In this document: positions 126-25,123 of the stretch, piece by piece
Layout of the letters: every line of letters begins with the position of its first letter
How positions within the stretch are numbered: position 1 is the stretch's first letter
Assembly: GCA_015232315.1 (NCBI GenBank)
Contig: JADFZZ010000042.1
Coordinates: 1-35,514, forward strand
Reading direction: 5' to 3'
DNA from: SAR324 cluster bacterium
GTDB lineage: Bacteria; SAR324; NAC60-12
DNA: 35,514 nt
Made by a program: the position numbers and the translations under genes
Notes under the pieces: model-generated
Told to the model about the DNA's origin: nothing
Database searches by the model: none
Seen by the model: only the letters and a program-made list of their open reading frames with translations

Positions 126-269
126 AGGTTGAGTCAGTTCATGCAGGAAAACCGTGAGATGGAAGTGGAATCTCTGCTGGAAACATTGCTGAAACAGGTC
201 GAACAGTTTGCGGAAGGCCTGGCTCAGGAGGATGATATGTCAGCCATTGTGTTTCGCTATGTGGGATGA
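126..269 (+). pseudogene. 3' remnant of a SpoIIE-type PP2C phosphatase gene
   Basis: The last ~45 codons of this frame read like the end of SpoIIE/RsbU-type serine phosphatases: an ERL-type helix (RLSQFMQENREMEVE), a helix LLETLLKQVEQFAEG, then QEDDMSAIVFRY before the stop. The DD pair corresponds to the metal-binding DDxT/S motif that precedes the final strand in this family. The same frame has a stop at 78-80, and neither other plus frame carries a recognisable continuation across bases 1-125, so the catalytic domain is absent here. It is either a decayed remnant or a gene broken by a frameshift near 126. No start codon with a ribosome site is evident; the first ATG is at 141. Confidence 0.45.
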
Positions 270-12549: not shown

Positions 12550-14274
12550 ATGGCAATGCAAATGAAGTTGCAGATGCGGCTAAGCCAGCAACTGATCATG
12601 ACCCCACAACTGCAACAGGCCATCAAGTTGCTTCAACTCTCCAGAACAGAACTGGAAGATCTTGTCAATCAGGCTCTTATAGAAAATCCTGTTCTGGAAG
12701 AATCCATGGATATTGATACGTTTCCTGCGGAAGAAGGGCAGGATATTGATTCGACTGAGAATTTTGATGTGGTTACGGAAGAACCTCAAGTGTTTGAATC
12801 AGTACGAGAGGTTGAAAAGGATTCTTCGTCAACACCAGAAGAAATCGACTGGCAGCAATATCTGGAGTTTGATGGAAACTATAACGACCGCAAACATAAT
12901 GTGTCAGATGATGAACTTCCTTCCTTTGAAGCCACGTTAACCCGGACAGAATCACTGGTGGATCATTTGGCATGGCAACTGGGAATGGGGGACTTTGATC
13001 CGCTGGAAATGGAAGTGGGAGGATATCTGGTCGGGAATATCAATGATGATGGCTATCTGGCTATCAGTATTCGGGAATTACTGGAATCCAATAACGAACT
13101 TCAAGAGGCGATTCTTGAAAAAGTATTCGAAACGCCGATATCTCAATGGGCGGAATTTCCTGTGGAATTGTTTGATCTGAAATATAAAGTCGAACGTGCC
13201 TCACACGATTCAGGCAAACGCAAAAAGAAAATGGATGACGAGATGGTGGATGAGTGGGATGAGGATTTCGACCTCGAAGAATTGGATGAGGACCTGGATT
13301 CACCGGAACCGGAAATAGAAGCTATTGTGCCAATGTCGATGGATGCCGCTATTTATGTGGAAAGGATCCTGCGGCAGATCCAGCAGTTTGAACCCAGTGG
13401 GGTCGGTGCAAGGAGTTTGCAGGAATGTCTGCTGATTCAACTGCGAAATGCCGGCCTGCAAAATGATTTGAGTTATCAGATTGTAGAACGTGACATAGAA
13501 CTGCTGGAATCCAAAGATCTGAAAAAAATCGCCCGACGTCACAAGCAGGATCTGGATCATGTCATTGAAGCATATCGCGGAATAATGACGCTGGAACCCA
13601 AACCCGGTCGTCTGTTCAGTTCAACACCCGCACATCATTACATTGTCCCGGATGTCTATATTTACAAATCCAATCAGGAATATAAAGTCGCACTCAATGG
13701 ACAGGGAATTCCAAGGTTAAGAATCAGCCATTATTATAAATCGCTGGCAGATCAGATGGCTGAAGACGGCAATCTGACCAAAGAGTATATTCAGGAAAAA
13801 ATCAAATCAGGCCAATGGTTGATGAAAAGTATTGAACAGCGTCAGAAAACCATTTACCGTGTGACACAAAGTATTTTGAAATTTCAGCGCGAATTTTTTG
13901 ACAAGGGAATCAATTATCTCAAGCCTCTGGTTCTCAAGGATGTCGCTGAAGACATCAGCGTGCATGAATCCACGGTAAGTCGGATCACCACCAATAAATA
14001 TGTGCATACCCCTCAAGGCATTTTTGAGCTGAAATATTTTTTTACAAGCGGTATTGACCAGGGCGAAGGTGGCGAGGCTATTTCATCCAAAAGAATCAAG
14101 GATATGATCACACAACTGGTGCAGTCAGAGGATCTGAAATCACCTTACACAGACTTGCAGATTGCTGATATTCTTTATCAGAAAAGCAATATCAAAGTTG
14201 CACGCAGAACAGTCGCCAAATACAGGGAAGCCCTGAATATTTTACCTTCCAACAAACGCAAACAATTATTTTAA
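12550..14274 (+). CDS. rpoN: RNA polymerase sigma-54 factor
   Basis: 574 residues, longer than the usual ~480. Region I is the Gln/Leu-rich start MAMQMKLQMRLSQQLIMTP with QLQQAIKLLQLSRTEL, which binds activators. The core-binding region includes FEPSGVGARSLQECLLIQL. The HTH is in DVAEDISVHESTVSRITTNK, and the C-terminal RpoN box ARRTVAKYREALNI contacts the -24 element. An extra, very acidic and Lys-rich insert (~215-257, MDDEMVDEWDEDFDLEELDE) interrupts the region before the core-binding domain. AGGA lies upstream of the ATG. pspA follows 11 bases after the stop. Confidence 0.97.
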   Translation: MAMQMKLQMRLSQQLIMTPQLQQAIKLLQLSRTELEDLVNQALIENPVLEESMDIDTFPAEEGQDIDSTENFDVVTEEPQVFESVREVEKDSSSTPEEIDWQQYLEFDGNYNDRKHNVSDDELPSFEATLTRTESLVDHLAWQLGMGDFDPLEMEVGGYLVGNINDDGYLAISIRELLESNNELQEAILEKVFETPISQWAEFPVELFDLKYKVERASHDSGKRKKKMDDEMVDEWDEDFDLEELDEDLDSPEPEIEAIVPMSMDAAIYVERILRQIQQFEPSGVGARSLQECLLIQLRNAGLQNDLSYQIVERDIELLESKDLKKIARRHKQDLDHVIEAYRGIMTLEPKPGRLFSSTPAHHYIVPDVYIYKSNQEYKVALNGQGIPRLRISHYYKSLADQMAEDGNLTKEYIQEKIKSGQWLMKSIEQRQKTIYRVTQSILKFQREFFDKGINYLKPLVLKDVAEDISVHESTVSRITTNKYVHTPQGIFELKYFFTSGIDQGEGGEAISSKRIKDMITQLVQSEDLKSPYTDLQIADILYQKSNIKVARRTVAKYREALNILPSNKRKQLF

Positions 14275-14285
14275 CCGGAGTTTTT

Positions 14286-14987
14286 ATGAATATGTTTACA
14301 AGATTTTGGAATGTGATCCGATCCAACATAAACAGCCTGCTGGATAAAGCGGAAGATCCTGAAAAAATGTTGACCCAAATGATTTCTGATCTGGAAGACC
14401 AGAAACGCCAGGCCAAGGAACAGATTGCTCATGCTCTGGCAGACCAGAAACGTCTTGAACGGGATCTGGTGAAGGAAAAGGAAGAAGTCCAGAAATGGGA
14501 ACAAAAAGCGATTCTGGCGATTCAGCACAACAAGGACGATCTGGCCAAGGAAGCACTGGTTCGCAAAAAAGAGCATGAACAGAGATCCATGGAGTTTGAA
14601 AAACAGGTTCAGTTGCACACCAGAAACACAGATGCTTTGCGTGATGGATATCAGAAACTGGAAGATAAAATTGAAGAAATCAAACGCAAAAAAGGGTTGC
14701 TGGTGGCAAAACAAAAACAGGCTCAGGCCTCGCAACAACTTTACCAAACCCTGGAAGGAATGGGAACAAACTCTGGCGGCGCGATTGCGACTATTGATCG
14801 GATGGAAGAAAAAGTTGAACAGATGCAGGCTAAATCAGAAGCGTATCAGGAACTGTCGCTGGACTCTGGAAAAGACAGTCTGGAAAAACAATTTGCGGAA
14901 CTCGGAAGTCCCACATCAGGCTCTGTCGAAATGGAATTACTGGAATTGAAAAAGCGCGCAGGACTGCTTGAACACAAAAATTCCTGA
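14286..14987 (+). CDS. pspA: PspA/IM30-family phage shock protein A
   Basis: 233 residues. The start MNMFTRFWNVIRSNINSLLD, with amphipathic helix and DKAEDPEKMLTQMI, is the family signature; the rest is almost entirely coiled coil. PspA binds stressed inner membranes and restrains PspF-type sigma-54 activators. GGAG lies six bases before the ATG. It sits 11 bases behind rpoN, so both are probably co-transcribed, tying sigma-54 level to membrane stress. No pspF, pspB or pspC is in the window. A bidirectional hairpin follows the stop. Confidence 0.94.
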   Translation: MNMFTRFWNVIRSNINSLLDKAEDPEKMLTQMISDLEDQKRQAKEQIAHALADQKRLERDLVKEKEEVQKWEQKAILAIQHNKDDLAKEALVRKKEHEQRSMEFEKQVQLHTRNTDALRDGYQKLEDKIEEIKRKKGLLVAKQKQAQASQQLYQTLEGMGTNSGGAIATIDRMEEKVEQMQAKSEAYQELSLDSGKDSLEKQFAELGSPTSGSVEMELLELKKRAGLLEHKNS

Positions 14988-15785: not shown

Positions 15786-16325
15786 TTAAAACATAAACCC
15801 CAGGATAACCATTAAATTGGAATACTGACGTTCCACAACTATTGAAGATCCGTCATCAAAAGTAAAGATTTCTGAGTTTGTGGATTCCTCCTGCCAGCCA
15901 ACAGAAAAAAGATAAATACTATATTCAAACATATATCCCACGCTGGAACGCACTCCTGTCAGAAATGCGGTTCTGTTTCTTCCCTGAATCGAGTTTTCCA
16001 GACTGTTTTTTAGTTGGACACTGTGCAAACTCTCCAAAGTCCCGCTACGCGCAAAAAAACCACCAAGCTGGATTCTGAGATAAAGTGGTTGCGAATTTTC
16101 TACAGTATGTTTGAAATTCTCATCGGTCAGATTTTCTGTGTCACGGGATGTTCCAAGGGAGATAAAGTCAAACAACCACACTTCAATGGCGAGTCCCCGC
16201 CGGAGAGAGGGTTGACTGGCTGCATAAACGTCAGTTTCCAGGGAAAAAGTACGGGCATTGAGCAGAGAGGGACTCAGGATAAGCCCTAAAAAGAGCATAA
16301 AACTTAAAAACAGGAAGGTTCTCAT
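15786..16325 (-). CDS. Small secreted, probably outer-membrane protein
   Basis: 179 residues from the ATG at 16325, which has GGGGA five bases upstream; an in-frame start at 16370 would overlap the upstream gene and add a non-signal-like leader. The signal peptide MRTFLFLSFMLFLGLILSPS with NARTFS is followed by alternating beta-type sequence ending in SNLMVILGFMF. A terminal Phe preceded by alternating hydrophobics is the usual signal for beta-barrel insertion by BamA. Family not recognised. It is 38 bases downstream of another protein of the same kind and probably in its operon. Confidence 0.65.
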   Translation of the reverse strand: MRTFLFLSFMLFLGLILSPSLLNARTFSLETDVYAASQPSLRRGLAIEVWLFDFISLGTSRDTENLTDENFKHTVENSQPLYLRIQLGGFFARSGTLESLHSVQLKNSLENSIQGRNRTAFLTGVRSSVGYMFEYSIYLFSVGWQEESTNSEIFTFDDGSSIVVERQYSNLMVILGFMF

Positions 16326-16363
16326 GGCCGGTCCCCAAGGTGGCAAGACGATTAAACAACGAT

Positions 16364-17095
16364 TTACCAATGAGCAAAAACGGCAACGCTGAATCCTCCG
16401 GTCAATGAAACGGCCTCATGCTGCACCTGATTATTTCGGGTGGTCGGAAGGCTGCTGGAAGTGGCTTCGGCCGTGATGCTCAAAAACTGAAATCGCATTC
16501 CCACATTTTCCAGAATCCAGTCCACTCCGATTTTCAGAACCTGGGCAGGAATGGTGATGGTGGAACTTTGATTGCTACGGAATCCTGTCAGCGTATCATA
16601 CTGGTCATCGTCCCGTTCACCGCCATTACTGAAAGCCTGTGTTGATAAATAAGTTCCTGTCAGAACTCCAAAAAATGGTTTCCATCCACCACTTTCATGA
16701 TTGCCGAAATACATGTTCAATCCGGACAATACACCTGTTTGAACGGTTTGAACAACATCTCCGATTTTAGTGTCCTGATCATCCAGACTCCTGGTGAAAA
16801 AAGTGAAGTTCTGTCTGCTGGGGGTGGTGCCAATGTCCACCTCAAAACCAACCACACCAAACATGATCCACTCGAACATCAGATCGGTAGCGATCATGGT
16901 ACCGGTATAAGTTTCCATGACAGGTTCCTCGGCTGTTTCAGCGGTTTCATCAGCAAACCGCTGCGTTTCATACAGATAATTGATATCACTGTTGAACCGA
17001 TTGAGACCCAGTTTCATATTTTTGGTTTTTTTGGCGCCATAGGCTGTTCCTGTCAACAGGAGCAGTCCCATCAGTAGCAGAATGAAATTACGCAT
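16364..17095 (-). CDS. Secreted, probably outer-membrane beta-barrel protein
   Basis: 243 residues. The signal peptide is MRNFILLLMGLLLLTGTAYG, with cleavage probably after AYG. The mature part alternates hydrophobic and polar residues (GTMIATDLMFEWIMFGVVGFEV) and ends AVSLTGGFSVAVFAHW, with a terminal aromatic as in outer-membrane barrels. Its size fits an 8-stranded barrel. Family not recognised. It heads a two-gene minus-strand unit with the similar protein at 15786..16325. The 226 bases upstream hold no gene. Confidence 0.65.
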   Translation of the reverse strand: MRNFILLLMGLLLLTGTAYGAKKTKNMKLGLNRFNSDINYLYETQRFADETAETAEEPVMETYTGTMIATDLMFEWIMFGVVGFEVDIGTTPSRQNFTFFTRSLDDQDTKIGDVVQTVQTGVLSGLNMYFGNHESGGWKPFFGVLTGTYLSTQAFSNGGERDDDQYDTLTGFRSNQSSTITIPAQVLKIGVDWILENVGMRFQFLSITAEATSSSLPTTRNNQVQHEAVSLTGGFSVAVFAHW

Positions 17096-17321: not shown

Positions 17322-18116
17322 TCAGGGAGATTCTTCTTGCGGACTTAATTCTATTTGAAGGATATGCCATTCCTCTGTTTGTTCAGAGGGTTGTCGGAGG
17401 AGATTCATGTTCACAATCCTTGATCCCAGTTTGCCTTTCACCTGGATCTGGATTTTCGCGGTAGGTGGCTGGGCACTGAAATCAAAATCCATTTCCGGTT
17501 TTTTTGATTCCTCAAAATCGCCAATTTGTTCCAGCAGTGGTTGATGATGCTTTAATTGCTGAAGAGCTGTTTGATAGGCGGAGGACTTTTTGATGATGTT
17601 GTCCTGAAATAAAATGGCTCCAAAGAAAAAACCAAACAGGATCAGATTTGCCAGCAGTAATCGCATCGGAACACGCAAAGCTCCGGGATGATCAATCACC
17701 ACAGACTGAACTGTTTTATCACCCCATCGCCTGGCATAGGGGTCCATCAACAAAAATAGGACTTCTACAGGCAGTAAGATCAGAAACAGGTTCCTAAATA
17801 TTTTTGTAAACCAGGCGGGTTGGTTTTCAATAGCTTTCAGGTTGCGCAGACTCATGCCCAGAATCAGTTTACCGGGACTGTTGAACGGAAAAATATCCCG
17901 AAGAATAAGCCATGTCAGCAGTCCACCATAAAAAACCACAAGATTGGTAGATTGGGGTGTTGTGCTCAAATCCCAATTATCCGGTTTGAACAGTTGATTG
18001 GCGCTATTGATCATCAACACTCCGATGATGAGATCAAATAAAAAACCAAACACACGTTTGCCTTTGGAGGATATTTTAATTTTTTCAGGAGCTGAGGCGG
18101 TGTTTTCTGAGGACAT
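17322..18116 (-). CDS. RDD-family membrane protein with Coa1-like C-terminal domain
   Basis: 264 residues. Residues ~12-140 form an RDD domain: KRVFGFLFDLIIGVLMIN, a second helix LVVFYGGLLTWLILRDIF, then SPGKLILGMSLRNLK, and a third helix near LILLPVEVLFLL. After a further helix (~153-170) a soluble tail (~170-260) contains KSSAYQTALQQLKHHQPLLE, QIGD, PTAKIQIQVKGKLGSRIV and EEWHILQIEL. This pattern resembles the Coa1/Tim21-type domain of cytochrome oxidase assembly factors. It is divergent from ctaB across a 284-base gap, so a role in cytochrome oxidase assembly is a reasonable inference. No cysteine or His metal motif is visible. Confidence 0.7.
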   Translation of the reverse strand: MSSENTASAPEKIKISSKGKRVFGFLFDLIIGVLMINSANQLFKPDNWDLSTTPQSTNLVVFYGGLLTWLILRDIFPFNSPGKLILGMSLRNLKAIENQPAWFTKIFRNLFLILLPVEVLFLLMDPYARRWGDKTVQSVVIDHPGALRVPMRLLLANLILFGFFFGAILFQDNIIKKSSAYQTALQQLKHHQPLLEQIGDFEESKKPEMDFDFSAQPPTAKIQIQVKGKLGSRIVNMNLLRQPSEQTEEWHILQIELSPQEESP

Positions 18117-18400
18117 TATTAAACCTTGATGGATGCTTGTAGAAATAATTGATTAATCCCGTGCAGAATAGATAAAACATAGAGATTGTTCAAGTAGAGA
18201 ATCTCTCTCAATGAAGTTCAGCTCAGGATTATAAAGAATAAGCTTTTGTCTTGCTATCGGGAAAAACCTTCTGTAGTACTTCCGCAAATTTCCCAGTCGT
18301 GCATCTCCTGATGCGTCATCATTCTGCGCTTTCCAGCAGAGTCCAAACTCACATGGGTTTTATGAAAAACAAGGCCATGGTGGCAAATGATATCATTTCC

Positions 18401-19273
18401 ATGACTTATTCTAAAAGTGTGTCTTATCTGGCTCTTACCAAACCACGCTTGCTCATGCTGGTGGTAATGACCACGCTGGTCGGATTTCTGCTTGCTGTCC
18501 GTCAGGATCATCAATGGTTGCTGATGTTTCATCTGCTGTTGGGAACCACGCTACTTGGTGGCGGAGCGAATTCGCTGAATCAGTGGTATGAATGGGCTCA
18601 GGATTCCAGAATGCGCCGAACCGCGGAACGCCCCATCCCTTCAGGAAAATTATCGAGGGAACAGGCCTGGTTGTTTGGCGTGACCATTTCTGTCACAGGC
18701 TTGCTCTATCTTGCCATGGCGGTGAATTCTTTGACTGCGCTCCTTGGTTTTTTGTCATGGGGAATTTATCTATTCTGGTATACGCCATTGAAACAGAAAA
18801 GTGTTCTGAATACATGGATTGGAGCCATCACCGGTGCTCTGCCACCTGTCATGGGCTGGACTGCGGTTGAGAATTCAATGGGAACCATCGCGCTTTGTTC
18901 CTTCGGGATTCTTTATTTCTGGCAATTACCTCATTTTTTTGCCATTTCATGGTTATGCCGTGATGATTATCAGAAGGGCGGATTCAAAATGCTGTCGATG
19001 GGGGATAATGAAGGTTCAGCGACAGCCCAACAGATGTTGCTCAATACACTACCTTTGATTGTCTTTAGTATTATCCCTTATATGACAGGATTTTGCGGAG
19101 ACTCTTATATGCTGACCAGTATTATACTGGGCGGTATTTTTTTGTTTGGTGTGGGACGTTTTTATTATTTCAGAGATAATATCAGCGCCCGCTGGGTGTT
19201 TATCATCTCAATCATTTATCTGCCAATTCTATTGTCTGTGATGGTGGTGGATCGAATGCCAATATTAACTTGA
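18401..19273 (+). CDS. ctaB: Protoheme IX farnesyltransferase (heme O synthase)
   Basis: 290 residues from the ATG at 18401, the usual length. The frame is open to 18251, but codons before MTYSKSVSYLALTKPRL are unlike the family; ATGs at 18353, 18362 and 18377 remain possible. It is a UbiA-superfamily integral membrane enzyme that farnesylates heme B to heme O for the oxidase encoded downstream. The first Asp-rich site is in NQWYEWAQDSRMRRTAERPI, and the second polar loop is CRDDYQKGGFKMLSMGDNEG, in which the DDY and following residues fit CyoE/CtaB rather than UbiA. About nine membrane helices. It is the first gene of the cytochrome c oxidase operon. Confidence 0.93.
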   Translation: MTYSKSVSYLALTKPRLLMLVVMTTLVGFLLAVRQDHQWLLMFHLLLGTTLLGGGANSLNQWYEWAQDSRMRRTAERPIPSGKLSREQAWLFGVTISVTGLLYLAMAVNSLTALLGFLSWGIYLFWYTPLKQKSVLNTWIGAITGALPPVMGWTAVENSMGTIALCSFGILYFWQLPHFFAISWLCRDDYQKGGFKMLSMGDNEGSATAQQMLLNTLPLIVFSIIPYMTGFCGDSYMLTSIILGGIFLFGVGRFYYFRDNISARWVFIISIIYLPILLSVMVVDRMPILT

Positions 19274-19443: not shown

Positions 19444-20133
19444 ATGAACATATTTCCAGTCAGTGCCTCAACCTTCAGTGGAGACATAGATGGATTATTC
19501 TGGTTGGTGACGACCTTGGTCGGATTCTGGTTTATTCTGTCTGAATTGTTATTGTTCTATTTAATATTTCGATTCCGACGCAAAAAAGGCGTTAAAGCTC
19601 AATATATTGCGGGTGAGTCCAGAAAAGAGATGGCCTGGATTTTTGTACCGCTCTTTTTTGTGATACTTTGTGATATCAGTATTGATTTGAGAACTCATAG
19701 TGTGTGGCAAAAAATCAAGGAAACACTTCCACAGGCAACAGAGAAAGTACGCGTGATCGGGCAACAATGGACTTGGGTTTTTGTGCATCCCGGGCCTGAT
19801 GGAGTGCTGGATACCTCTGATGATATCGAAACAGTCAATGAATTGCATGTAAAAGTTAACACAACAACCCATTATGAATTACAGTCTCGTGATGTTCTTC
19901 ACAATTTTTCAGTACCAGTGTTTCGTCTAAAACAGGACGCTATTCCAGGCCGTGCCATCACAGGCTGGTTTGAAGCCACTCAAACAGGTGAGTATGATAT
20001 CCAGTGTGCTGAAATGTGTGGTATTGGTCATGGTTTGATGGGAGCCAGAATTTTTATTGATACGCAAGAACAGTATGAGACGTGGATGGCTCAAGAAATT
20101 CAAAAACAGCAAAATTATGTAGCATCCAAATAA
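19444..20133 (+). CDS. ctaC: Cytochrome c oxidase subunit II
   Basis: 229 residues. Two N-terminal membrane hairpin helices (~18-42 and ~63-80) are followed by the periplasmic CuA cupredoxin domain. CuA ligands are complete: His153 in VLHNFSVP, and Cys188, Glu190, Cys192, His196, Met199 in CAEMCGIGHGLM. The electron-entry aromatic patch is QQWTWVF. A loop HPGPDGVLDTSDDIETVN is inserted as in several deltaproteobacterial subunits II. No fused cytochrome c domain and no lipobox are present. The Glu of RKEMAW corresponds by position to the subunit II Glu that lines the K-channel entrance in A-type oxidases. GGGAG precedes the ATG. Confidence 0.95.
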   Translation: MNIFPVSASTFSGDIDGLFWLVTTLVGFWFILSELLLFYLIFRFRRKKGVKAQYIAGESRKEMAWIFVPLFFVILCDISIDLRTHSVWQKIKETLPQATEKVRVIGQQWTWVFVHPGPDGVLDTSDDIETVNELHVKVNTTTHYELQSRDVLHNFSVPVFRLKQDAIPGRAITGWFEATQTGEYDIQCAEMCGIGHGLMGARIFIDTQEQYETWMAQEIQKQQNYVASK

Positions 20134-20175
20134 TTTCGTGCTTAGAATTAATTTTAACTTTGATAAGGAGGATCA

Positions 20176-21879
20176 ATGAGTAAAACAGATCATCAGGTTC
20201 ATCCCTCGGATCATGGTCATGGTCATGATCACGAAATGAATTTCTGGAGTAAATATATTTTTCCACTGGATCATAAAATGATTGGTTTGCAGTATTTGTG
20301 GACTGGTCTGTTCATGGCTCTGGTGGGTGGTTTTTTCGCATATGTGTTCCGGATGCAATTGGCCTTTCCGGGAGAGTCTGTGCCAGGTTTTGGTCATGTC
20401 TCACCAGCAAGCTATAATGCGTTGATCACCAATCATGGAACCATTATGATTTTTTGGGTGGCCATGCCCATGCTGGTCGCAGCCTTCGGAAACATCCTGA
20501 TTCCCCTGATGATTGGTTGTGACGACATGGTATTTCCCCGATTGAACCGGTTGTCCTATCAAATCTTTTTTATTAGTACTGTGTTGCTGTTTGTCGGATT
20601 TTTTGTTCCAGGAGGAGCCTTTGGTGGCGCATGGACATCCTATCCACCACTTTCTGCCCGTGCGGAATACAACCTGACTCCATGGGGAGCATCCATCTGG
20701 TTGTTGGCTGTCGCACTTGAAATTGTCGCGTTTCTTCTTGGAGGAATTAATTTTATCACAACAACCATGAACTCCAGGGCTCCGGGAATGAAAATGATGG
20801 ATATTCCCATTGTTGTCTGGATGATCAACATTGCGGTGGTATTATTTATGTTTTCCGTCGGTCCACTGGTTGCTGGCGCTGTGATGCTGTTGTTTGACCA
20901 AACGATTGGAACCAGTTTTTTTGTGCCTTCCGGTGGGGGGGATCCTGTATTATGGCAACACCTTTTTTGGTTTTTTGGACACCCTGAAGTCTACGTAATT
21001 CTTTTACCGGAAATGGGTATTGTCGCGGAAATCATCACCGTGTTCTCCAGAAAAAAACTATTCGGTTACAAGATGATTGTATACACAACATTCATGGTCG
21101 GAATCCTGAGTATGATCGTTTGGGCGCACCATCAATTTATTGCAGGTATTGATCCGCGCATGGCATCCATTTTCAGCTTTACCACCATTTTGATTTCCAT
21201 ACCTATCGCGGTAATCTTTTTTGCTTATATTGCGACATTGTACGGTGGCAGTATTGAATTTAAAGTACCCATGCTCTGGGCCTTGGGGATGATCGCGGAG
21301 TTTCTGCTGGGTGGCGTGACCGGAATTTATCTCGGAGCCAGCGCACTGGATGTCTATTTTCATGACAATACTTTTGTAGTTGCTCATTTTCACTATACAT
21401 TGATCCCCGTAGTGTTTTTTGGCGGCTTTGCCGGAATCACTTACTGGTATCCCAAAATGTTTGGGAAAATGATGAGTGAGACTCTTGGGAAATTGCATTT
21501 CTGGGGAACCACGATCTTTTTTAATGGAATATTCATCCCCTTGTTTTTCCTTGGATTGGCCGGGCAACACCGCAGAATTTATGACTACAGAAATTTTCCT
21601 GATTTGGCTGGAATGCAGGATTTGAGGATATTTGCCACAATGTGTTTGATTGGATTACTGATTTCACAGATCCCATTCATCATTAATTTTGTCAGAAGTA
21701 TCAAAAACGGAGAAGACGCCGGAAAAAATCCATGGAAAGCTAATACCTTGGAATGGATCACCGCATCCCCTCCTCCTCATGGAAATTTTGCTGAAATGCC
21801 AACTGTCTATCGAGGTCCTTATGAATACAGTGTTCCGGGACGCAAGGAAGATTTCTGGCCACAAAATCAGCCTAGTTAA
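20176..21879 (+). CDS. ctaD: Cytochrome c oxidase subunit I (heme-copper oxidase, A-type)
   Basis: 567 residues. Ligands present: heme a His87 (NHGTIMIFW) and His406; CuB His269, His318, His319; heme a3 His404 (AHFHY); cross-linked Tyr273 and D-channel Glu271 in GHPEVY. D-channel entry residues Asn106, Asp117 and Asn124 are also in place (FGN, CDDM, PRLN). The Mg-site HD is in YFHDNTFVVAHFHY. Positions matching the K-channel Ser299, Thr359 and Lys362 of the Rhodobacter enzyme are Ala284, Ile344 and Ile347. The N-terminus is His/Asp-rich (HPSDHGHGHDHE). About twelve helices. A perfect AGGAGG-type site (GGAGGATCA) precedes the ATG. Downstream of ctaC by 42 bases. Confidence 0.96.
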   Translation: MSKTDHQVHPSDHGHGHDHEMNFWSKYIFPLDHKMIGLQYLWTGLFMALVGGFFAYVFRMQLAFPGESVPGFGHVSPASYNALITNHGTIMIFWVAMPMLVAAFGNILIPLMIGCDDMVFPRLNRLSYQIFFISTVLLFVGFFVPGGAFGGAWTSYPPLSARAEYNLTPWGASIWLLAVALEIVAFLLGGINFITTTMNSRAPGMKMMDIPIVVWMINIAVVLFMFSVGPLVAGAVMLLFDQTIGTSFFVPSGGGDPVLWQHLFWFFGHPEVYVILLPEMGIVAEIITVFSRKKLFGYKMIVYTTFMVGILSMIVWAHHQFIAGIDPRMASIFSFTTILISIPIAVIFFAYIATLYGGSIEFKVPMLWALGMIAEFLLGGVTGIYLGASALDVYFHDNTFVVAHFHYTLIPVVFFGGFAGITYWYPKMFGKMMSETLGKLHFWGTTIFFNGIFIPLFFLGLAGQHRRIYDYRNFPDLAGMQDLRIFATMCLIGLLISQIPFIINFVRSIKNGEDAGKNPWKANTLEWITASPPPHGNFAEMPTVYRGPYEYSVPGRKEDFWPQNQPS

Positions 21880-21922
21880 ATTTTAAGGAATTAAATCATT
21901 CATCGTTTTTTCAAGGAGGAGT

Positions 21923-22495
21923 ATGTCACCTATTGCAACAACACGAAGCGCAACAGGAATCCCTACCGGTCGTCTGGCCGTGTGGTGGGTCATTATTTCA
22001 GAAATTGTTATTTTTGGTGGTCTTGTGACCTGTTATCTGCTCATGAGACTTGGAAACCCGGAATGGGCTGAGTATGCATCGCATACCAGCACACCGGCTG
22101 GCGCACTCAATACACTGGTTTTGCTGACATCGAGTCTGTTTGTAGTTATTGCGCACAATGCCGCAGAACACGATCATGATGGAGCCAAAGCGTTTAAATT
22201 CCTCTGGATGTGTATTGCTTTGGGCGGTGTGTTTTTATGCGTCAAGGCCTTTGAATATACAACAGAGATCCATCATGGCTTCACTATCACCAAGAATGTA
22301 TTCTGGTCATTTTATTTCATTGCGACCGGTTTGCATGGCTTGCATGTGATTGCTGGAATGGTGATTATGGCCATTATTTCTTTTGATGTGAAAAAAGGGA
22401 AAAACTTTCAAAGAGTTGAACTGATTGGCGCATACTGGCACTTTGTAGATATTGTCTGGATCTTCCTGTTTCCGTTACTTTACATCGCTAAATAA
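21923..22495 (+). CDS. ctaE: Cytochrome c oxidase subunit III
   Basis: 190 residues, about five membrane helices, so it lacks the first two helices of the seven-helix mitochondrial form, as is common in bacteria. Family landmarks are the start SEIVIFGGLVTCYLLMRLG, a middle ALNTLVLLTSSLF, GLHGLHVIAGM, and the end AYWHFVDIVWIFLFPLLY. AGGAGG lies four bases before the ATG. It stabilises subunit I and its D-channel. A second subunit III homologue is two genes downstream. Confidence 0.94.
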   Translation: MSPIATTRSATGIPTGRLAVWWVIISEIVIFGGLVTCYLLMRLGNPEWAEYASHTSTPAGALNTLVLLTSSLFVVIAHNAAEHDHDGAKAFKFLWMCIALGGVFLCVKAFEYTTEIHHGFTITKNVFWSFYFIATGLHGLHVIAGMVIMAIISFDVKKGKNFQRVELIGAYWHFVDIVWIFLFPLLYIAK

Positions 22496-22514
22496 TGTTT
22501 GATAAGGAGAAATT

Positions 22515-22850
22515 ATGTCTGAAGAAACCAATTCCACCCATCCTCATCCTGTTAAAATTTGGGTGATTCTTTTGATTTTATTCATCATCAGCGTTGCCGG
22601 ACCGATGTTGGGACACCCGATTGTCACACTCATAACGGCTTTTGGAATTGCACTGGTGAAAGCACTGACTGTCGCCGCTTATTACATGCATCTGAAAATT
22701 GAAAAGCATTACATCTGGTATGCGATGTTTTGCGGAGTTTTGGCATTGATTGTATTATTCACAGGTTTGGCTCCTGATATCATGAAAAAGCAAGGGACTA
22801 ACTGGAAAAATTGTATGGCTGACCACTCTTGTGTTCAGCAACGTTTATAG
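22515..22850 (+). CDS. ctaF: Cytochrome c oxidase subunit IV (prokaryotic type)
   Basis: 111 residues with three membrane helices (~14-31, ~36-57, ~67-87) and the family pattern LVKALTVAAYYMHLKIE. It matches the small subunit IV/CyoD-CtaF group found beside subunit III. AAGGAG precedes the ATG 19 bases after ctaE. The C-terminal tail contains two cysteines (NCMADHSCVQQ), which is not typical. Its stop overlaps the ribosome site of the next gene. Confidence 0.88.
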   Translation: MSEETNSTHPHPVKIWVILLILFIISVAGPMLGHPIVTLITAFGIALVKALTVAAYYMHLKIEKHYIWYAMFCGVLALIVLFTGLAPDIMKKQGTNWKNCMADHSCVQQRL

Positions 22851-22858
22851 GAGGTATC

Positions 22859-23446
22859 TTGGTCAATATCCCGCAAACGCATCCCAGAACCCGGTCTTCA
22901 ACACCAGTTCCCAGTGGTGTGGTTGGGGTTTTAATTTTTATTGCCGCAGAGATGATGTTTTTTTCAGCTCTGCTTTCAGCCTATTATATTATAAGGGCCG
23001 GATCTCCAGAATGGCCACCCTGGGGACAGCCTCGCCTTCCGGTTGAAGCCACAGCCGTAAACACAGTCATCCTGTTGTTGAGTGCTGTGGTTCTCCATTT
23101 CGCATATCGTCATTTTAAACATCAAAATAAATCCCGCACAGTTCAGTTATTGACTGTCACTGTTCTGCTAGGTATGATTTTTGTTGGAATGCAGGGATAT
23201 GAATGGGTCAAGTTGATCAGCTTTGGTCTGACCATGACATCCAGTGCTTATGGTGGAGTATTTTATCTGATTATTGGATGCCATGGACTCCATGTTCTTG
23301 GTGGCTTAATGGCACTAATGCAACTGCTGTTCAAAGTACGAAATGATGTTGCCAGTATGCACCCATCCTTTGTTGTTCCTCAAATTTTCTGGTATTTTGT
23401 AGTAGCCTTGTGGCCGCTGTTGTATGTGACTGTGTATCTTTTGTAG
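22859..23446 (+). CDS. Second cytochrome c oxidase subunit III homologue
   Basis: 195 residues from a TTG at 22859, chosen because AGGAGG (22849-22854) lies four bases upstream; the first in-frame ATG (22829) is inside ctaF and would add an unlikely leader. Five helices with COX3 landmarks: IAAEMMFFSALLSAYYIIRA, SPEWPPWGQPRLP, VNTVILLLSAVVLHFAYRHF, GCHGLHVLGGLMAL and the end PQIFWYFVVALWPLLYVTVY. The PEWPPxGxPxLP loop differs from the upstream ctaE product, so the pair is a divergent paralogue set rather than a recent duplication. Translation is likely coupled to ctaF. Confidence 0.88.
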   Translation: MVNIPQTHPRTRSSTPVPSGVVGVLIFIAAEMMFFSALLSAYYIIRAGSPEWPPWGQPRLPVEATAVNTVILLLSAVVLHFAYRHFKHQNKSRTVQLLTVTVLLGMIFVGMQGYEWVKLISFGLTMTSSAYGGVFYLIIGCHGLHVLGGLMALMQLLFKVRNDVASMHPSFVVPQIFWYFVVALWPLLYVTVYLL

Positions 23447-24006: not shown

Positions 24007-24109
24007 TGTCATCCCGACAGAACGAGGTCCGAGAGACTGGGGATCTTGAAGATTGGTGTATATGATCTCTCCTTCGTCGAGATGAAAAACTGTAAACAGG
24101 ATAATGACA
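24007..24109. repeat. Dispersed inverted repeat, TGTCATCCCGA type
   Basis: The left end TGTCATCCCGACAGAACGAG, running to GGGGATC, is mirrored on the right by GATCTCTCCTTCGTCGAGATGA and a terminal AATGACA, with mismatches. This is the familiar extragenic TCATCCCGA...GGGATC repeat style. The 361 bases between the small Cys protein and the transpeptidase start hold this unit and AT-rich sequence, with no gene seen. The element covers the first candidate ATG of the next frame (24104), which argues for the later start at 24149. Confidence 0.5.
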
Positions 24110-24148
24110 GATGTCGAAAATTACTTAATAAATCTATGGATCTGTTTT

Positions 24149-25123
24149 ATGAAATGCATACTGTGGGGACTCAGTGCGATTCTAATCATGTTGCCATCAC
24201 TGGTTTTAGGGGAAAACCTGCTGCCCGATTCTCTTGTGTATTACAATTACCCGGGAAAGCACGTTCTGATAGTGGACAAGTCGGGTTGTGAGGTCAGGGT
24301 ATATCGTTATCAGGAACAATGGGGACAAGTTGCTCAATATAAATGCACAACCGGAAAGAAGGAAGGGGATAAATTCAAAGAAGGTGATGAACGAACGCCC
24401 TTAGGTATTTACTGGCTTAATAACGGCTGGACAGGGAATGAATTGGTGAGTCAATATGGGGATAGTGCTGCCATTTATGGTTTAGGAGCGTTTGAACTGA
24501 ACTATCCTAATTATATCGATAAACTGCTGTATAATAAAAGCGGATATGGGATCTGGTTACATGGAACCGATAAAGGCGAACCTTCAGCAACTCGTGGTTG
24601 TGTTTCAACCAGCAATTCAGATCTGGCAGAAATTTCACGTTATATCGAATTTGGTCAAACCCCGATTCTTATTGAAGAAAAAGTAAACTATGTGACTCCT
24701 GATCAAATAGAACGGCAACAAAATGAAATACTGACGTTTCTGGATTACTGGAAGAAAGCCTGGGAATCGGATGATTTGGCGAATTTTCTTTCGTTCTATT
24801 CAAAGGATTTTCAGACGCCCCGATTTAATTACAGGCAATGGCAGGAATATAAGCAGGTTGTCAATAGCCTGAATACGAACCGGAGAGTAGAGGTCTCCGA
24901 TATTTCAATATTGAAATCAAAAGATTTGTATTCTATTCAGTTTTTACAGCGGTTTACCTCTGACCGAACCAGAGATGTCGGAAAAAAACAACTTTATCTG
25001 GTTCAGGAAGCAGGATTATACAAAATACTGAGTGAAAACTGGGAACCGGAAGCAGTGCTCCCGCACAAGCCATCCTTCAATCATTATGCCTATAAGCTCA
25101 ACACACAGGAAGAATCACTTTAA
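24149..25123 (+). CDS. L,D-transpeptidase (YkuD domain) with NTF2/SnoaL-like C-terminal domain
   Basis: 324 residues from ATG 24149. The signal peptide MKCILWGLSAILIMLPSLVLG is followed by a YkuD catalytic domain (~25-185) with HVLIVDKSGCEVRVYR, the substrate loop RTPLGIYWLNN, and the catalytic HGTDKGEPSATRGCVSTSN with His and nucleophile Cys. The C-terminal part (~195-310) resembles an NTF2/SnoaL-like fold (LTFLDYWKKAWESDDLANFL, then YSKDF), a pairing common in YafK/ErfK-type proteins. It acts on peptidoglycan cross-links or lipoprotein attachment in the periplasm. Its last 4 bases overlap the convergent argB stop. Confidence 0.88.
   Translation: MKCILWGLSAILIMLPSLVLGENLLPDSLVYYNYPGKHVLIVDKSGCEVRVYRYQEQWGQVAQYKCTTGKKEGDKFKEGDERTPLGIYWLNNGWTGNELVSQYGDSAAIYGLGAFELNYPNYIDKLLYNKSGYGIWLHGTDKGEPSATRGCVSTSNSDLAEISRYIEFGQTPILIEEKVNYVTPDQIERQQNEILTFLDYWKKAWESDDLANFLSFYSKDFQTPRFNYRQWQEYKQVVNSLNTNRRVEVSDISILKSKDLYSIQFLQRFTSDRTRDVGKKQLYLVQEAGLYKILSENWEPEAVLPHKPSFNHYAYKLNTQEESL

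Follow-up and report, generated by a model that had tools for sequence, protein, structure and literature searches.

An RDD membrane module fused to a Coa1-like domain is kept in most SAR324 genomes examined and generally lies apart from cytochrome oxidase genes

Does a gene that lies back to back with the heme O synthase and cytochrome oxidase genes of a SAR324 bacterium encode an oxidase assembly factor, or does its position say little about its role? The question is raised by a 35,514-nucleotide stretch of DNA (the window, contig JADFZZ010000042.1 of assembly GCA_015232315.1), in which a reading made from the letters alone (here, the sequence-only reading) had recognized an RDD membrane protein fused to a Coa1/Tim21-like domain and had proposed for it a bacterial role in oxidase assembly. 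RDD and bacterial Coa1 proteins are both without a settled role, and their fusion in 45 of 52 genomes of the class ties the two families together. The available portion of PMC12419801 calls the role of RDD unknown and places a site within the membrane, and that of PMC8709867 describes COA1 as a distant homologue of TIMM21 and reports a bacterial cluster of COA1 homologues. Within the open-licence literature, we found no paper on an RDD-Coa1 fusion, none pairing the phrase "Coa1 family protein" with the assembly of cytochrome c oxidase, and none naming two of Coa1, DUF1783, and PF08695.

The fusion gene and its RDD module

The fusion gene (Table 1) is indeed divergent from ctaB, with 134 nt between it and the TTG start of that ORF at 18251. 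Promoter-like sites around it occur at chance level, and terminator-like sites are not above chance. The genome to which the window belongs contains one further RDD match and no further Coa1 match, and a search of NCBIfam with the 264-residue protein gave no match.

Table 1. Coordinates of the fusion gene, the parts of its product, and the neighboring genes in the window
Feature	Position	Strand	Basis
RDD-Coa1 fusion gene	17322..18116	(-)	ORF, 264 aa, ATG start, stop codon included
RDD module, residues 14-150	17667..18077	(-)	Pfam RDD, homologue alignment, invariant residues, predicted model; putative membrane location
RDD module elements: helices 18-43, 56-72; half-helices 102-111, 115-124; strands 88-92, 138-142			Predicted model
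Fourth membrane helix, residues 148-171	17604..17675	(-)	Predicted model and alignment with stand-alone Coa1; putative membrane location
Coa1-like domain, residues 170-264, predicted periplasmic	17325..17609	(-)	Pfam Coa1, hhalign with controls, predicted model
Downstream gene	16364..17095	(-)	No Pfam family over cut-off; signal-peptide-like start (reading of sequence)
Second downstream gene	15786..16370	(-)	No Pfam family
ctaB (UbiA family), divergent neighbor	18251..19273	(+)	Pfam UbiA, 180.8 bits
Oxidase genes cox2, cox1, cox3, cox4, cox3	19444..23446	(+)	Pfam COX2, COX1, COX3, COX4_pro, COX3

The window protein scores 18.3 bits over residues 19 to 153 against Pfam RDD (PF06271), below the cut-off of 24.1. 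The alignment comprises 35 of the 45 members, and every one of these is matched by the RDD profile at E≤0.1 (best E, 5.1e-13). R21, D28, S80, G82, R108, P116, R130, and D133 are invariant in all 35. Since R21, D28, and D133 are among them, the R, D, and D residues that define the RDD family, as given in the available part of PMC5996927, are covered: an arginine at the start of TM1, an aspartate in the middle of TM1, and another conserved aspartate later. The module further resembles the family in its S-x-G-K and R-N motifs and in its predicted place in the membrane, but it is divergent and is followed by an extra helix and a putatively periplasmic domain. Mean pairwise identity is 27% in the Coa1 part versus 40% in the RDD part, and the RDD module may therefore do the main work.

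Homology of the C-terminal domain to Coa1

Judged from single sequences, the Coa1 assignment is borderline. The window protein reaches 22.6 bits against Pfam Coa1 (PF08695; residues 165 to 260), 0.6 bits over the cut-off of 22; the profile matches 6 of the 35 aligned homologues at E≤0.1, and in a genome-wide Pfam search just two genomes of the class, G000 and G031, exceeded the Coa1 cut-off. In a profile-profile comparison with hhalign, residues 150 to 264 of the family aligned to a profile of 34 Coa1 proteins, all from outside the class, with a probability of 98.1% and an E value of 6.8e-14 (1.4e-13 when the window protein and L064 were removed; 8.2e-12 with the soluble part only). As controls, the RDD half gave a probability of 0.15% against the same profile, 60 column shuffles gave a lowest E of 0.019, and the reversed alignment gave 0.046. 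When two less diverse alignments were compared, A4 with A5, of which A5 includes one fusion from the unrelated bacterium G185, the result was 89.7% and an E of 1.8e-6.

As in stand-alone bacterial Coa1 proteins, a membrane helix is predicted to immediately precede the domain (by alignment, and as a helix spanning residues 148 to 190 in the model), and the S-x-A-Y-x-x-A-type start, a late W (31 of 35 class members), and the order of elements in the alignment are shared, whereas the glycine of the LG position of Coa1 is kept in 19 of 35 members and an RDD module stands in front. Each motif quoted in the sequence-only reading can be found in the protein, SAYQTAL starting at residue 179, LGSRIV at 230, and EEWHI at 248. 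The Coa1 element with which LGSRIV aligns is the later hairpin (GSEEKGVLHI in L073) rather than the early GS[VIL] stretch.

That a small helix-plus-sheet domain should match Coa1 by chance, as the slim Pfam margin, the few matching homologues, and the commonness of the fold might hint, is very improbable in view of the profile-profile E value with its clean controls and of the two G185 fusions, both of which are detected by the C-terminal model of the window family (E, 1.4e-7 and 1.8e-7) and also by the Coa1 model (7.6e-12 and 1.6e-10), neither model matching the other 18 RDD proteins. The fusion is thus borne out by Pfam, by the homologue alignment, and by profile-profile comparison with controls, and on this sequence evidence we regard the C-terminal domain as homologous to Coa1. 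No Coa1 domain was found in 18 other RDD proteins with two profiles, and no RDD module was found in the 34 proteins of the Coa1 profile. When the family and bacterial Coa1 were searched against PDB sequences, no Tim21 or Coa1 chain was matched, the best matches being unrelated or designed proteins.

Predicted structure and topology

The AlphaFold model of the whole protein, built with 17 sequences, is of moderate quality (pLDDT, 73.6; pTM, 0.53), and the last 119 residues modeled alone reached 79.7 and 0.60, respectively. Besides the two RDD helices listed in Table 1, the model predicts short helices and two strands within residues 81 to 142, the helix at 148 to 190, which joins the fourth membrane helix without a break to the first one of the Coa1 domain, and four strands within residues 208 to 259. 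At E≤0.001, Foldseek matched neither the whole model nor its C-terminal part to any structure; with the C-terminal model, Tim21 (2ciu) ranked seventh (E, 0.41; TM, 0.46), and its E value ranged from 0.41 to 1.0 across searches. VIA-align grouped the C-terminal part with cystatin and NTF2-like folds (4r80; Z, 10.1 and 9.4) and also matched periplasmic domains of secretion machines, including DotI (Z, 8.2 to 8.4), an IcmL-like protein (8.7 to 8.8), and TrwG (7.9 to 8.2). Tim21 (6k7f) followed at rank 48 with a Z of 7.3, an rmsd of 3.6, and 116 aligned residues, and it was absent among the best 50 matches of a second structural comparison. Many other cystatin-like and NTF2-like chains score at or above Tim21, and common arrangements also give Z values between 7 and 10. 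The Coa1/Tim21 fold that had been read into the sequence is therefore compatible with the model, but so equally are those of many cystatin, NTF2, and VirB8-like proteins: the predicted fold agrees with Coa1/Tim21 without singling it out. Like Tim21 and mitochondrial Coa1 (MITRAC15), the protein appears to carry a helix-plus-sheet domain behind one membrane helix; it differs from them in that no oxidase link was found and in that its structural match to Tim21 is middling.

The fusion suggests a testable topology, with the RDD module in the membrane and the Coa1 domain in the periplasm, which the distribution of positive charges favors weakly.

Distribution within and beyond the class

The fusion is a genuine one, retained by most genomes of the class. 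In a search of 98 genomes, 45 of the 52 class (SAR324) genomes, that of the window included, had a homologue aligning over almost its full length, and two weak matches fell outside the class; a single-sequence search of genome contigs gave no relative. A profile search of 367 genomes returned the same 45, one per genome at E<1e-60, and the matches beyond the class spanned the RDD part, except in G185. Seven class genomes lack the fusion (G023 and G046 to G051, with an RDD-only match in G051), and six of these belong to family f3.

G185 (family f138) encodes two RDD-Coa1 fusions (L158 and L159) with the same domain order as that of the class protein, which is present in one copy per genome. When RDD modules (18 from the class, 2 from G185, and 19 others) were placed in one tree, the G185 modules stood apart from those of the class, which group together but are weakly supported (74/46); a single clade of class and G185 modules was not rejected (p-AU, 0.106), with long branches in play. 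A common origin of the class and G185 fusions is, from these sequences, neither shown nor rejected. A precedent for such fusions is Mas1B of actinobacterial mce operons, in which, according to the available part of PMC1810536, an RDD module is joined to an extracytoplasmic domain; the likeness is drawn from that description, and the soluble domain and setting are different.

In a broad set of 383 genomes, Coa1 scored over the cut-off in 6, two of which belong to the class. Among genomes around G185 the count was 3 of 193, and among genomes around G079 it was 70 of 144; we tentatively take these relatives of G079, in which stand-alone Coa1 is common, to be Myxococcota.

Gene neighborhoods of the fusion and of the oxidase genes

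Neighborhoods were read, with the window's own proteins as tblastn queries, for 40 of the 44 other fusion genes of the class (all but those of G015, G021, G027, and G030); 23 of them had at least 5 kb, and 27 at least 3 kb, on both sides. By these queries, none of the 40 contains a ctaB or cox gene near the fusion, and at E≤1 they yielded three matches, all with an E of 0.18 or worse. The assembly role is therefore not supported by gene order, a link to oxidase genes elsewhere being the check by which the sequence-only reading had proposed to refute it, and among the neighborhoods read the fusion adjoins ctaB in the window's genome only. That genome and G034, in which a COX1 fragment lies about 30 kb from the fusion, are the only listed genomes with the fusion and COX1 on one contig.

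Seen from the oxidase side, 8 of 12 class oxidase loci chosen from COX1 matches carry ctaB, cox2, cox1, cox3, cox4, and cox3 in the window's order, and the fusion was not found in these eight; in two of them (L194 and L195) the contig ends less than 1 kb upstream of ctaB, leaving the next gene out of view, and in L197, L198, and L205 the gene upstream of ctaB differs in each. By this evidence, ctaB is not part of the system to which the fusion belongs. After the oxidase genes, at 24104-25123, the window has a gene for an L,D-transpeptidase-like protein with a Cds6 domain at its C terminus, and such a gene trails the cassette in 6 of the 12 oxidase loci.

Nor was an oxidase gene found beside stand-alone Coa1 genes (20 neighborhoods) or the G185 fusions (2 neighborhoods) with the window's proteins as queries, which find the cassette in class oxidase loci and whose power of recognition in distant Coa1 genomes may differ; 19 of these 22 neighborhoods had at least 5 kb on both sides. 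The stand-alone loci in relatives of G079 have, by crude gene calls, a gene order common to part of them, and no constant partner gene of Coa1 was found there. With oxidase genes recognized in 0 of 20 stand-alone neighborhoods by the window queries, the name Coa1 is poor evidence of oxidase assembly in bacteria. Across the class neighborhoods, the stand-alone genes, the G185 pair, and the cassettes without a fusion, gene order thus speaks against the oxidase assembly role that had been read from it.

What does lie beside the fusion varies with lineage (abhydrolase and dUTPase genes, LpxD-like and LeuA-like genes, RecN-like and nuclease genes, a TPR gene, or an FtsI-like transpeptidase gene, some of these names being readings of sequence), and no gene neighbor conserved across the whole class was found. 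The fusion overlaps the upstream ORF by 4 nt in 18 of the 38 loci with a located gene. These shifting neighborhoods fit a housekeeping gene better than part of one pathway. The two genes downstream of the fusion in the window also follow it in L037, L041, and L049, and they perhaps encode secreted or outer membrane proteins. In addition, the fusion has rpoN and/or pspA no more than about 7 kb away, both in the window (12550-14987) and in 5 of the 10 loci read for family f2 (L054, L056, L058, L060, and L064), perhaps reflecting an older gene order.

Co-occurrence with COX1 and with oxidase assembly factors

COX1 was matched in 43 of the 52 class genomes, namely, in 38 of 45 with the fusion versus 5 of 7 without it (p, 0.59). 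When strong matches alone were counted (E<1e-90, a limit set after the data were seen), the figures were 34 of 45 versus 2 of 7 (p, 0.023), and when COX1 genes cut in pieces (G016, G025, and G034) were added, likewise post hoc, they were 37 of 45 versus 2 of 7 (p, 0.0076). This post hoc association speaks for a link between the fusion and the oxidase. However, six of the seven lacking genomes are in f3, and within f3 (fusion in four genomes, absent in six) strong COX1 was found in 2 of 4 versus 2 of 6 genomes (p, 1.0), so that one loss in one clade may explain the association. Two genomes carry the fusion without any COX1 match (G043, 97% complete, and G001, 93% complete), and five carry COX1 without the fusion (G046, G049, G050, G051, and G023), of which G046 and G050 are at least 90% complete.

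SURF1 was found in none of the 52 class genomes (the same search matches 2 of 14 known genomes) and neither was CtaG/Cox11 (1 of 14), and SCO1 was found in 42, of which 41 are over the cut-off. Oxidase assembly in the class seems to do without SURF1 and Cox11 or to use unrecognized forms of them.

Candidate roles of the fusion protein

Starting from the observed presence of the two domains, their conservation, and the absence of an oxidase neighborhood, we tentatively favor, at somewhat less than even confidence, an inner membrane adaptor whose periplasmic Coa1-type domain helps to assemble or stabilize membrane complexes and is not dedicated to cytochrome oxidase. Within the membrane, the RDD module would have its conserved polar residues facing the cytoplasm, and the fourth helix would cross to the periplasm and bear the Coa1/Tim21-type domain there. 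Most likely, this domain would dock on other membrane proteins during their assembly or within a finished complex, with the RDD module acting either as its anchor or as a binding site for an intramembrane partner or ligand. The protein would serve the envelope in general. We count in support of such an adaptor that its predicted fold is common to extracytoplasmic domains of membrane machines (DotI, IcmL-like, TrwG, and Tim21).

An oxidase assembly factor acting in trans, whose Coa1-type domain would hold nascent subunit I and perhaps replace SURF1, seems unlikely to us. Mitochondrial Coa1 reportedly holds nascent oxidase subunit I, and the homology to Coa1 would suit such a role, as would the complete absence of SURF1 and CtaG/Cox11 beside widespread SCO1 and COX1, which leaves some assembly steps without a known factor; together with the commoner strong COX1 in genomes with the fusion, this absence gives an oxidase role in trans some room. 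The weight on the other side comes from the 40 neighborhoods devoid of oxidase genes, the cassettes that occur without the fusion, the stand-alone Coa1 genes that are not beside oxidase genes recognized by the window queries, the lack of association when any COX1 is counted or when f3 is taken by itself, and the genomes that have either the fusion or COX1 without the other. The bolder version, in which the chaperoning of oxidase subunit I passed in SAR324 from both SURF1 and Cox11 to the RDD-Coa1 protein, strikes us as decidedly improbable; if true, mitochondrial Coa1/Tim21 would have a bacterial counterpart in this protein, and the RDD module would have a part in assembly.

Also unlikely, to about the same degree as the assembly factor in trans, is a role in handling envelope lipids or precursors, modeled on RDD-Mas or VanZ-RDD proteins, in which the RDD module would bind a lipid-linked ligand and the periplasmic domain would pass that ligand on or scaffold a transporter. 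The LpxD-like and FtsI-like neighbors point that way, as do the two putative secreted or outer membrane genes beside the window gene and at three other loci; an RDD module fused to VanZ, with an intramembrane site facing the cytoplasm, appears in the available part of PMC12419801, and RDD-Mas proteins in mce settings appear in that of PMC1810536. Each such neighbor is, however, confined to one part of the class, and no recurring lipid transport gene was found among the named neighbor families.

Exchange of Na+ (Li+, K+) for H+ by the RDD module, with the Coa1 domain as an accessory, is suggested by a Halobacillus andaensis RDD protein reported as an antiporter in the available part of PMC5996927. 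R108 and D133 are invariant, but among the residues needed by that antiporter (R124, R129, D154, and D158), equivalents of R129 and D154 alone are evident by an approximate ungapped count that starts at the last RDD aspartate and runs backward. For an antiporter, a number of three to four helices is low, and we consider this role quite improbable for the fusion protein.

The best structural match of the RDD part was chain A of 7t92, a peroxisomal ubiquitin ligase retro-translocon (Z, 10.4; 123 residues); the match is helical, and the likeness is possibly due to chance.
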